From a bacterium (GTDB lineage Bacteria > ARS69): a stretch of 16,901 nucleotides of DNA. Below are positions 6,582-9,718 of the stretch, in pieces. Under the pieces are notes generated by a model, which worked only from the letters and a program-made list of their open reading frames with translations, was not told the DNA's origin and ran no database searches. A program made the position numbers and the translations under genes. Position 1 is the stretch's first letter; the number at the start of each line of letters is the position of its first letter. Location: NCBI GenBank assembly GCA_025774865.1, contig JALGZO010000171.1:1-16901 (forward strand), given 5' to 3'.

Positions 6582-7142
6582 TCAGCGCGGCTCGAACAAG
6601 CTCCGCTGCCGCGGTCGCGACGGGAACCCCAGCTTTCCCAGGATTTCCTCCACCCAGCCCTCCGGATCGTCCGGATCGAGCTCGTGCGCGGTCACTCCGA
6701 GATCGCGGATGAGATCTTCCAGGGTCACGTCGATCTCGCGTTGAAACACGAGATCCGTGTCGCGGGTTCCGTCGAACCGAGGAGGCTGCCAGAGCGGGAC
6801 TTTGAACAGGGCGCCGTAGGTGTCGCACCAGCGGCGCACCCACGGGTCGAGCTCCGCGCGTCGCCCCACGGCATGCACGAGGTACGCGTAGTTGTCGAGG
6901 ATCGAGCGATCGCAGACGACGACTTCCGAGCCGTTGGCTGCCCCGATCTCACGCGTGCACTGGGTGTGAAGAATCCACGATTGGGCGTCGAGCGTCGTGT
7001 CGCGATTGAGCGGCAGGGGGCAGTCTCGGGCGACCTCTTTCACGAGGTCCACCTGGAGGTCCAGACGCTTGAGCTTCGCGGCCAGCTCGAAGCACAGAGT
7101 GGTCTTTCCGACACCGTGGGTGCCGATGAGTGCGATCTTCAC
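6582..7142 (-). CDS. Small P-loop NTPase (AAA_28/NadR-kinase-like)
   Basis: Compact 186-residue cytoplasmic nucleotide-binding protein. The Walker A loop GTHGVGKTT occupies residues 7-15 directly at the N-terminus. VVCDRSILDNYAYL (about 94-107) is the Walker B-like strand with the DRS-x-DN pattern seen in NadR/Ttd14-like AAA_28 proteins and in nucleoside or nicotinamide riboside kinases. The C-terminal half is acidic and ends in a short basic tail. The start is GTG at 7142 with GGAG at 7151-7148, five bases away. It lies downstream of the inositol-phosphate synthase on the same strand, separated by 115 bases with a strong hairpin, so co-expression is uncertain. It may be a small-molecule kinase or a regulatory NTPase; the substrate cannot be read from the sequence. 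Confidence 0.85.
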   Translation of the reverse strand: MKIALIGTHGVGKTTLCFELAAKLKRLDLQVDLVKEVARDCPLPLNRDTTLDAQSWILHTQCTREIGAANGSEVVVCDRSILDNYAYLVHAVGRRAELDPWVRRWCDTYGALFKVPLWQPPRFDGTRDTDLVFQREIDVTLEDLIRDLGVTAHELDPDDPEGWVEEILGKLGFPSRPRQRSLFEPR

Positions 7143-7257: not shown

Positions 7258-8565
7258 TCAGTCGTAGTACTCGGTGCCCAGGTGCGTGATGAGGGTTTCC
7301 CCCTTGAGGTGCCGGAGCGTGTTCTTCAACTTCATCAGCTGAATGAACAGGTCGTGCTCCGCGTAGAGCCCCGGTGCGGTTTGCGGGCTCTTGAAGTAGA
7401 AGGAGAGCCACTCCTGGATGCCGCTCATTCCGGAGCGGTGCGCCAGGTCGAGAAACAGCGCGAGGTCCAGGACGATGGGCGCGGCCAGGATCGAGTCGCG
7501 GCACAGGAAGTCGACTTTGATCTGCATCGGGTAACCGAGCCACCCGAAGATGTCGATGTTGTCCCAGCCCTCCTTGTTGTCTCCTCGCGGCGGATAGTAG
7601 TTGATGCGCACCTTGTGGTGGATCTCTCCGTACAAGTCCGGATAGAGGTGCGGCTGCAGAATGTGATCGAGCACACTCAGCTTCGATTGCTCCTTCGTCT
7701 TGAACGACTCGGGATCGTCGAGCACTTCGCCGTCGCGGTTGCCGAGAATGTTCGTCGAGAACCACCCGTTCACTCCGAGAAGCCGCGCCTTGAAGCCGGG
7801 CGCGAGAATCGTCTTCATGAGAGTCTGACCGGTCTTGAAGTCCTTGCCGCCGATCGGAATTCCCTCACGCTTCGCAAGCTCGACGAGCGCGGGCGTATCG
7901 CAGGTCAGGTTGGGGGCCCCGTTCGCGAAGGGCGTCCCGGTCTTGATGGCCGCGTACGCGTACACCATGCTGGGCGAGATGTCGGGGTCGTTTTCCATGA
8001 GCCCGAGCTCGAACGCGTCGATCGTCTCGTGGACCGGCTTGGTCTCCATGAAGATCTCGGTCGAGCCGCACCACACCATCACGGTACGGTTGCAGCCGTT
8101 CGCCTTCTTGAACCGCTCGATGTCGTCGATCAAGAGACGAGCCTTCTCCATCCAGGACTCGCCGCCTTTCACGTGCGTGCCGTGCAGCTTCTTCACGTAG
8201 CGCTGGTCGAACACGGCTGGCCAGGGTCGGATCTTCTCGAGCTGCGGTCGCAGATCCTCCAGTAGGTCCTTGTCCAGCACGCCGGACCGTCGAGCCGCCG
8301 TGTACACGTCTTCGTCGAAGATGTCCCAGCCGCCGCACACGATGTCGTCGAGGTCCGCCAGCGGCACGAAGTCCTTGATCCTCGGAGAGCGGTCCTCGGT
8401 GCGCTGGCCGAGGCGGATCGTCCCCATCTGGGTCAGCGACCCGATCGGGGCGCCGAGCCCGGCCTTCACGGCCTCGATACCAGCGATGAACGTCGTGGCG
8501 ACGGCGCCCATGCCCGGGAGCAGGACGCCGAGTTTCCCTCCGGTAGGTCGAATGTCGGCGCTCAC
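7258..8565 (-). CDS. ino1: myo-Inositol-1-phosphate synthase (inositol-3-phosphate synthase)
   Basis: NAD-dependent cytoplasmic enzyme converting D-glucose 6-phosphate into 1L-myo-inositol 1-phosphate, the first step to inositol and inositol lipids. The 435-residue product begins with a Rossmann loop LPGMGAVATT (G18, G20). It carries the family blocks GGKDFKTGQT (239-248), LLGVNGWFSTNILGNRDG (262-279), FKTKEQSKLSVLD (288-300), HHKVRINYYPPRGDNKEGWD (316-335) and DSILAAP (357-363), with the conserved lysines of the active site in place. At about 435 residues it resembles the longer Bacteroidetes-type synthase used for phosphoinositol lipids more than the 367-residue mycobacterial Ino1. GTG start at 8565 with AAGGAG at 8577-8572, six bases away. 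It is divergent from a LysR-type regulator across a 157-base gap with an LTTR-like box, which suggests that regulator controls it. No phosphatidylinositol synthase is visible nearby. Confidence 0.95.
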   Translation of the reverse strand: MSADIRPTGGKLGVLLPGMGAVATTFIAGIEAVKAGLGAPIGSLTQMGTIRLGQRTEDRSPRIKDFVPLADLDDIVCGGWDIFDEDVYTAARRSGVLDKDLLEDLRPQLEKIRPWPAVFDQRYVKKLHGTHVKGGESWMEKARLLIDDIERFKKANGCNRTVMVWCGSTEIFMETKPVHETIDAFELGLMENDPDISPSMVYAYAAIKTGTPFANGAPNLTCDTPALVELAKREGIPIGGKDFKTGQTLMKTILAPGFKARLLGVNGWFSTNILGNRDGEVLDDPESFKTKEQSKLSVLDHILQPHLYPDLYGEIHHKVRINYYPPRGDNKEGWDNIDIFGWLGYPMQIKVDFLCRDSILAAPIVLDLALFLDLAHRSGMSGIQEWLSFYFKSPQTAPGLYAEHDLFIQLMKLKNTLRHLKGETLITHLGTEYYD

Positions 8566-8680
8566 GATTCACTCCTTCGGTTTTGGAGAAGGCTCCCCGA
8601 TCGCTTTGATTGCGGACGGTCGGCCTCGTTCCCTCTTCCGGAGAGCAAGTTAGGGTTCCGCACCACGATTCGTCCAGTCA

Positions 8681-8688
8681 ATTATACT
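8681..8688. promoter_or_regulatory. Overlapping divergent -10-like hexamers (ino1 and lysR)
   Basis: Within ATTATACT the - strand reads a perfect TATAAT (8686-8681) facing ino1, and the + strand reads TATACT (8683-8688) facing the LysR gene. Neither has a good -35 at 16-18 bases. The - strand -35 position falls inside the inverted repeat at 8694-8718, which fits an activator-dependent promoter. A + strand transcript would begin near 8695, close to ATG 8696, so a leaderless lysR mRNA is possible. Confidence 0.5.
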
Positions 8689-8693
8689 TGTCA

Positions 8694-8718
8694 GAATGAT
8701 TAGGATTACTTATCATTC
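8694..8718. promoter_or_regulatory. LysR-type T-N11-A operator between ino1 and lysR
   Basis: GAATGAT and ATCATTC are perfect 7-bp inverted arms separated by exactly 11 bases (8701-8711), the classical geometry of an LTTR recognition site (T-N11-A). It is AT-rich against the high-GC background. It ends four bases before the preferred lysR start codon and covers the -35 region of the putative ino1 promoter. This placement would allow autorepression together with control of ino1. Confidence 0.62.
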
Positions 8719-8722
8719 GCGA

Positions 8723-9643
8723 ATGGACATCCGCTCCGTTCGCTACTTCCTCGCTGTCGCCGAAGAGCGCTCGTTTCGCCGGGCGGCCGAGCGGGTCGGT
8801 GTGAGCCAGCCCGCGATCTCGCAGGGTATCCGGTTGCTCGAGGACGATCTCGGGACGCGTCTCTTCGACCGGGTGTCCTCACGGACCTCGCTCACCCCCG
8901 ACGGTCAGCTCTTCTTGGAGCCCGCCCGCCGGGTGGTCGAGGAGTTCGACGGGCTCCGCGGTCATCTCGACCGCAGCCGCGGAGTCGTGCGAGGCCGCCT
9001 CGAGATCGGGACGACGGACGTCGCGAGCATCTACGTCTTGCCGAAGGTCTATCGGCGATTCCGCCGGAAGTATCCGGAGGCGGAGCTGTCGGTTCACGTG
9101 GAGGGGACGGAGTCACTGATCCGCCAGCTTCGTGAGCGGACGATCGAGATCGCGATCGTGACCCTGGCCGTCGGCGATCGAGAGGCGGATGTGCCTGAGC
9201 AATTCGTGGCGGATCCGCTCTTCCGCGAGGAGCTGTCCGTCATCGTGTCACGCAACCATCCGCTCGCGGACCGCCGTCGAATCGAACTCGCCGACCTGGC
9301 GGATACCCCGTTTCTGTCATTCAAAGAGGGTTCCGTGACGCGGCAGGGCGTCGATGCGGTGTTCGGCGAGAGCGATGTCTTCCCGCGCGTCGCGATGGAG
9401 ATGTCGAGTCCGGAGGCGATCAAGAAACTCGTCGAGGTCGGGGTGGGAGCGAGTGTCCTGCCCGCCCAGTCAGTCCGGGCGGAGGTCCGCTCCGGCGCCC
9501 TCGTTGTCCTGCCCGTGCCGGGAGCGCGTCTGACGCGAGTTCTCGGGGTCGTTTGCGCCCGCGGTCGGACACCGTCACCGGGTGCCGCGGCCTTTCTCGA
9601 GCTCGTCGAGTCGATCCGGAACATTCCACGTGCTGAAGCCTGA
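8723..9643 (+). CDS. LysR-family transcriptional regulator
   Basis: Cytoplasmic DNA-binding regulator of 306 residues, normal for the family. The N-terminus MDIRSVRYFLAVAEERSF leads into the winged helix-turn-helix FRRAAERVGVSQPAISQGIRLLE (about 18-40) and LGTRLFDR. The rest is a periplasmic-binding-protein-like co-inducer domain starting at GRLEIGTTDVASIYVLP, with LVEVGVGASVLPAQSV near its end, a pattern of the CysB/CbbR/CynR type. I chose ATG 8723 because the family alignment starts there. ATG 8696 adds nine residues (MIRITYHSR) encoded by the palindrome itself and is less likely as protein, though a leaderless start there cannot be excluded. Neither start has a good Shine-Dalgarno. Being divergent from ino1 across the LTTR box at 8694-8718, it probably regulates ino1 and itself. 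The inducer is unknown. Confidence 0.93.
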   Translation: MDIRSVRYFLAVAEERSFRRAAERVGVSQPAISQGIRLLEDDLGTRLFDRVSSRTSLTPDGQLFLEPARRVVEEFDGLRGHLDRSRGVVRGRLEIGTTDVASIYVLPKVYRRFRRKYPEAELSVHVEGTESLIRQLRERTIEIAIVTLAVGDREADVPEQFVADPLFREELSVIVSRNHPLADRRRIELADLADTPFLSFKEGSVTRQGVDAVFGESDVFPRVAMEMSSPEAIKKLVEVGVGASVLPAQSVRAEVRSGALVVLPVPGARLTRVLGVVCARGRTPSPGAAAFLELVESIRNIPRAEA

Positions 9644-9718
9644 TGACGGCTCCACGGACCCGAGACCGGTCGCTCGATATGATCTAGAATGCCTTCTCCT
9701 CGTTTCCGGGGATGGGGC

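Follow-up and report, generated by a model that had tools for sequence, protein, structure and literature searches.

An inositol-phosphate synthase gene (ino1) and a gene for a LysR-type transcriptional regulator (LTTR; lysR) are transcribed divergently in the window, i.e. the whole 16,901-nucleotide stretch of DNA that was analysed, and this locus raises the question of whether the regulator controls its neighbor through the inverted repeat between them. A sequence-only reading had proposed such control, describing an LTTR box and two overlapping divergent promoters in the intergenic region, and had named comparison of the gene pair and of the intergenic region among relatives as a check.

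The genes at the locus

The regulator is a full-length LysR-type protein of about 300 aa, with an N-terminal HTH and a C-terminal substrate-binding domain. Its gene (8723..9643, plus strand, ATG start) encodes 306 aa with matches to Pfam HTH_1 (PF00126, residues 3-62, E 3.5e-23) and LysR_substrate (PF03466, residues 87-295, E 9e-53), and full-length LTTR structures in the PDB matched the protein in a sequence search with E-values down to 6e-31. The window LTTR scored below the curated NCBIfam cut-off of every named LTTR subfamily (GltC, CynR, CidR, OxyR, CysB and others), the best scores being those for NF040786 (180 bits vs a cut-off of 250), CynR (177 vs 277) and GltC (170 vs 350); a phosphonate LTTR model was also among the best subfamily matches, below its cut-off. 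The lysR start of the sequence-only reading is corrected here to the ATG at 8723, the start aligned in 4/4 own-phylum orthologues. An ATG at 8696 is in frame, but was rejected because the alignment of all four orthologues begins at 8723, just downstream of the promoter.

The ino1 gene (7258..8565, minus strand, GTG start) encodes a myo-inositol-1-phosphate synthase of 435 aa (Pfam PF07994, E 2e-101; PF01658, E 7e-33) that is 78-85% identical to those of three own-phylum relatives. A Shine-Dalgarno AAGGAG (8572..8577, minus strand) was read directly from the sequence ahead of ino1, which therefore has a leader, unlike lysR; no known RNA element was found in this leader at Rfam gathering scores. 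A gene for an AAA_28-domain P-loop protein (6582..7142, minus strand; Pfam PF13521, E 8e-17) follows ino1 directly as its probable operon partner, an arrangement seen in 4/4 own-phylum genomes. It was not found beside ino1 in other phyla, and its product had no PDB relative by sequence; the protein may be a lineage-specific partner of inositol synthesis.

Conservation of the gene pair

The own-phylum sample consisted of five genomes, including G001, G002, G003 and G004. The same divergent pair was carried by G002, G003 and G004, with LTTRs 59-65% identical to that of the window, while G001 (67% complete) contained neither the LTTR nor ino1, so that lysR and ino1 were divergent neighbors in 4/4 own-phylum genomes having either gene. 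Much of the neighborhood is syntenic across these genomes, and the gene-pair evidence within the phylum is therefore weak by itself.

A search of 241 genomes supplied further ino1 loci, and a divergent LTTR adjoined ino1 at two of those fetched from outside the own phylum, in G102 (47% identical) and G176 (40% identical), with no other neighbor shared. Profile searches of the G102 and G176 phyla returned 35 LTTR loci, with ino1 divergently adjacent in 32 of the 35 and no other synteny shared. Two of the three exceptions (L196, L208) were at contig ends. The third, L211 (G317:C109:3057-3923), is a second paralogue unlinked to ino1 in a genome that also has an ino1-linked LTTR. The expectation that the two genes would be neighbors in relatives was thus borne out within and beyond the phylum.

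In a profile search of 386 genomes, every LTTR scoring at least 357 bits was linked to ino1, as was the G004 copy (274 bits), which is truncated by a contig end. Another 22 LTTR loci that were checked, with scores of 294 bits or less, all lacked ino1, and none of 80 distant LTTRs at named-organism loci adjoined it. The own-phylum and G102-phylum proteins formed a supported clade (97/92) in the tree, which neither shows nor rules out a single origin of all ino1-linked LTTRs. Outside the three phyla most of the ino1 genes at the loci fetched were without a LysR neighbor, suggesting that the circuit is lineage-specific. Within the G176 phylum, no LTTR match at 1e-50 came from a large family (f26), although ino1 occurs in at least one of its genomes (G029); this family would therefore have lost or replaced the switch, or never have had it.

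The inverted repeat and its conserved core

The inverted repeat GAATGAT-N11-ATCATTC described in the sequence-only reading was confirmed at 8694..8718, with perfect 7-bp arms and an 11-base spacer, as was the AT-rich island around it (26% G+C over 8680-8718 vs about 66% for the window). When the 159-bp intergenic region was shuffled, some 7-bp dyad with a spacer of 0-30 appeared in 20% of shuffles, while one with exactly N11 appeared in 1.3% of intergenic shuffles and in 0.6% of shuffles of the AT-rich island. The repeat has one perfect copy in the whole 4.7-Mb assembly. Taken alone, it is suggestive only.

Alignment of four own-phylum intergenic regions revealed a 52-bp block adjoining lysR in which 24 of 52 columns were invariant (shuffle mean 1.3, maximum 8 in 5000 shuffles), with conservation dropping to background upstream of it. 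The best joint palindrome of this block was centred at 8706, with 24/36 pairs (column-permutation P 0.005), and T-N11-A was present in 4/4 own-phylum sites. The intergenic alignment thus upheld the inner T-N11-A of the proposed site but not its outer bases GAAT/ATTC, which vary among the own-phylum sequences, and the full arms GAATGAT/ATCATTC were accordingly ruled out as the operator. The comparison across phyla described below gave an LTTR box core of the ATAA-N7-TTAT type with T-N11-A, ATTAGGATTACTTAT in the window (8699..8713, centre 8706), which has one mismatch to ATAA-N7-TTAT. The inverted repeat is real and looks functional from this conservation, with a conserved core smaller than the 7-bp arms.

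A second conserved dyad, GATTCGTCCAGTC (8667..8679), contains an invariant TCCA, lies 33 bp (three turns) from the box and is a candidate second LTTR contact. The full scan ranked it second among palindromic centres, and with the centre fixed there its P was 0.002. This dyad is without T-N11-A, leaving the window with a single consensus T-N11-A box, and it lies on the opposite side of the box from where the G176 phylum has its second box.

The operator in other phyla

Exact ATAA-N7-TTAT was observed in 23 of 35 intergenic regions from the three phyla (shuffle mean 0.58, maximum 3), and allowing one mismatch raised this to 31 of 35 (5.7 in shuffles, with a maximum of 11), although these regions are related by descent and the shuffle statistics overstate their independence. 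The T-N11-A core was conserved across all three phyla, and two G102-phylum members had the related dyad ATAG-N7-CTAT. The LTTR box of the sequence-only reading therefore stands as a T-N11-A core conserved in three phyla, while the conserved part is ATAA-N7-TTAT and not the full 7-bp arms.

In 20 of 22 G176-phylum intergenic regions a second ATAA-N7-TTAT was found, spaced 31 bp from the first. The idea that it is an artefact of the start codon was rejected, since loci whose lysR start codon is assigned elsewhere (L185, L199, L207, L209, L210) also have it. On the ino1 strand, 17 of these 22 regions had a TAnnnT at a distance of 20-22 bp from the centre of the first box, against 0-2 in intervals elsewhere, and a start taken about 12 nt beyond it would place the two boxes at about -33 and -64 of ino1. 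Extra half-sites, TWAT-N7-ATAA, were also observed 20 bp from the first box in G176-phylum lysR upstream regions (L183-L210), besides the 31-bp box; they may offer the dimer another place to bind, of the kind that sliding-dimer models of LTTR activation invoke.

Of 24 genomes searched for the tandem box, 20 had it, in every case at lysR-ino1, and the single box was unique in the own-phylum genomes. A wider regulon was rejected, since the own-phylum genomes contained no convincing further copies and the extra one-mismatch tandem copies in the 24 other genomes (one each in two of the 20) equalled the number in a reversed-pattern control. That the tandem box is essentially confined to lysR-ino1 argues for a single-target regulator.

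Promoters of lysR and ino1

The sequence-only reading had noted a TATAAT on the minus strand (8686-8681) and a TATACT on the plus strand (8683-8688) as overlapping divergent promoters. Both hexamers are present and overlapping divergent promoters are supported, but the plus-strand TATACT was rejected as the lysR -10 because it is not conserved and has a poor -35. The predicted lysR promoter is instead TTGTCA (8688-8693) - N17 - TATCAT (8711-8716), on the plus strand at 8688..8716, which or a variant of which was the best-scoring plus-strand promoter at the homologous place in 4/4 own-phylum genomes and the sole promoter found in a consensus promoter scan (shuffle mean 0.0). Much as in the window, TTGACA-N17-TATnnT overlaps the box in most of the G176 phylum.

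The lysR -10 ends 6-7 nt before the ATG at 8723, and from this spacing the lysR mRNA is predicted to be leaderless. Because the LTTR box covers the spacer and -10 of this promoter, a classical position for an autorepressor, the regulator should repress its own gene. Separately, a TATGAT ends 5 nt before the start codon of the next plus-strand gene (hypothetical, ATG 9689; 9678-9691), giving a second possible leaderless mRNA, and leaderless genes may be common in the window's phylum.

Two candidate promoters were considered for ino1, both on the minus strand. The first, P1, has the TATAAT (8681..8686) as its -10, with a start at about 8674 and the box centre at about -32. The key positions of this hexamer (A2, A5, T6) do not vary in 4/4 own-phylum sequences, and its place matches that of the G176-phylum -10, while the -35 of P1 is poor and the score of P1 alone gives P 0.07. 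The alternative, P2 (8647..8676), consists of TGGACG (8676-8671) - N18 - TAACTT (8652-8647), weak hexamers found at the homologous place in 4/4 own-phylum sequences, with -10 columns that are not conserved. LTTRs usually have a primary T-N11-A site whose centre is near position -65 relative to the target and which covers the lysR promoter, together with a secondary site that extends to the target -35 (PMC4834489). A P2 start at about 8640 would give this canonical layout, with the box centre at about -66 and the dyad at 8667-8679 at -33, and the window fits primary and secondary sites near -65 and -35 only with this start and not with the P1 start at about 8674. The positions of these candidates lead us to conclude that the box and the predicted ino1 promoter are physically linked, whether the start is P1 or P2.

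Proposed mechanism and alternatives

We consider it likely, on these comparisons, that the locus is a divergent LysR switch dedicated to ino1, with an operator lying across the lysR promoter and at or over the edge of the ino1 promoter. Control of ino1 by the LTTR, the central claim of the sequence-only reading, is very likely as a prediction from comparison, the pair and the T-N11-A core having been kept together, and the regulator, retained with its matching site in three phyla, very probably serves as a switch dedicated to inositol synthesis. Comparative analysis of the sequences shows the gene pair, the operator core, the predicted lysR promoter across the operator and one operator locus per genome, and we infer that the LTTR binds this operator.

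In the mechanism that we propose, the LTTR would bind the ATAA-N7-TTAT (T-N11-A) operator across its own -35/-10 promoter, with two operator dimers held about three helical turns apart, and the same operator would either border the ino1 promoter on its upstream side or extend over it. The bound regulator would repress lysR, with its predicted leaderless mRNA, and would control ino1 on the opposite strand, where its most likely role is that of an effector-dependent activator. Activation of ino1 seems probable to us and its repression unlikely, and the effector would presumably come from inositol metabolism (inositol, an inositol phosphate or glucose 6-phosphate). We are also inclined, if only slightly, towards a broader view in which these LTTRs form an undescribed orthologous group in at least three phyla with ino1 as sole target, sense an inositol-pathway metabolite and, in the window's phylum, are made from a leaderless, self-repressed mRNA.

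Of the alternatives, the one that survives best, although we regard it as rather doubtful, is that the LTTR represses both genes, blocking ino1 (from P1, start about 8674) together with lysR until an effector releases it when inositol phosphate is needed. The perfect TATAAT of P1 in the window would fit such repression, as would a box centred about 32 bp upstream of the P1 start and a second dyad at about +1, such that a bound tetramer covers the ino1 promoter. However, the G176-phylum boxes at about -33 and -64 have the layout of an activator, ino1 has a poor -35 in the own phylum, a trait of activator-dependent promoters, and most LTTRs activate their divergent target (PMC4834489).

It is improbable that the LTTR regulates itself and distant genes only, with ino1 as an inherited neighbor. 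A longer gene block does keep its order within the own phylum, and the box overlaps the lysR promoter most tightly, but two other phyla keep the pair and not the remaining genes of the block, the genomes searched yielded no further convincing copy of the operator, and the ino1 -10 lies at a near-fixed distance to the box in 17 of 22 G176-phylum intergenic regions. It is highly improbable that an AT-rich promoter island produced the dyad by chance, or that the dyad there serves an unrelated regulator, since the same core occurs at the same place in three phyla and tracks this LTTR group, even though 20% of intergenic shuffles contain some 7-bp dyad when the spacer is left free.

Inositol synthesis is patchily distributed among bacteria, and the descriptions of ino1 control that we found concern actinobacteria (IpsA). 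If ino1 is indeed under a dedicated divergent LysR switch, the LysR-ino1 unit in several other phyla would be a handle on when inositol lipids or inositol osmolytes are made and would provide a candidate inositol sensor, and the operator would predict the start sites of both lysR and ino1.

Comparison with known systems

GltC/gltA of Bacillus subtilis has overlapping divergent promoters and two operator boxes. The locus studied here may resemble it in promoter layout, with divergent, overlapping promoters predicted to be under an LTTR. It differs in that the target is ino1 and not glutamate synthase, and the 170 bits of the window LTTR are far under the GltC cut-off of 350.

Canonical divergent LTTR systems (PMC4834489) share with this locus the divergent pair, a T-N11-A dyad over the lysR promoter, a second dyad about three turns off and a single target locus. 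What sets this locus apart is its target, inositol-phosphate synthase, together with a lysR mRNA predicted leaderless in the own phylum and a possible overlap of the two promoters. A literature search, with most subscription papers outside its reach, turned up no report of a LysR protein that regulates inositol-phosphate synthase; a study of inositol lipids in Bacteroidetes (PMC9246714) makes no mention of LysR in its main text.

The nearest functional precedent is IpsA of Corynebacterium and Mycobacterium, a LacI-type activator of ino1 whose effector is myo-inositol (PMC3899939). Both cases involve a transcription factor at a palindromic site for ino1, here as a prediction, inositol being the signal of IpsA and a candidate signal here, but the regulator is of the LysR type here and the LacI type there, and the IpsA regulon is wider and includes cell-wall genes (PMC3899939). 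The mode of action at this locus appears to be that of an ordinary LTTR, and the target appears to be new.
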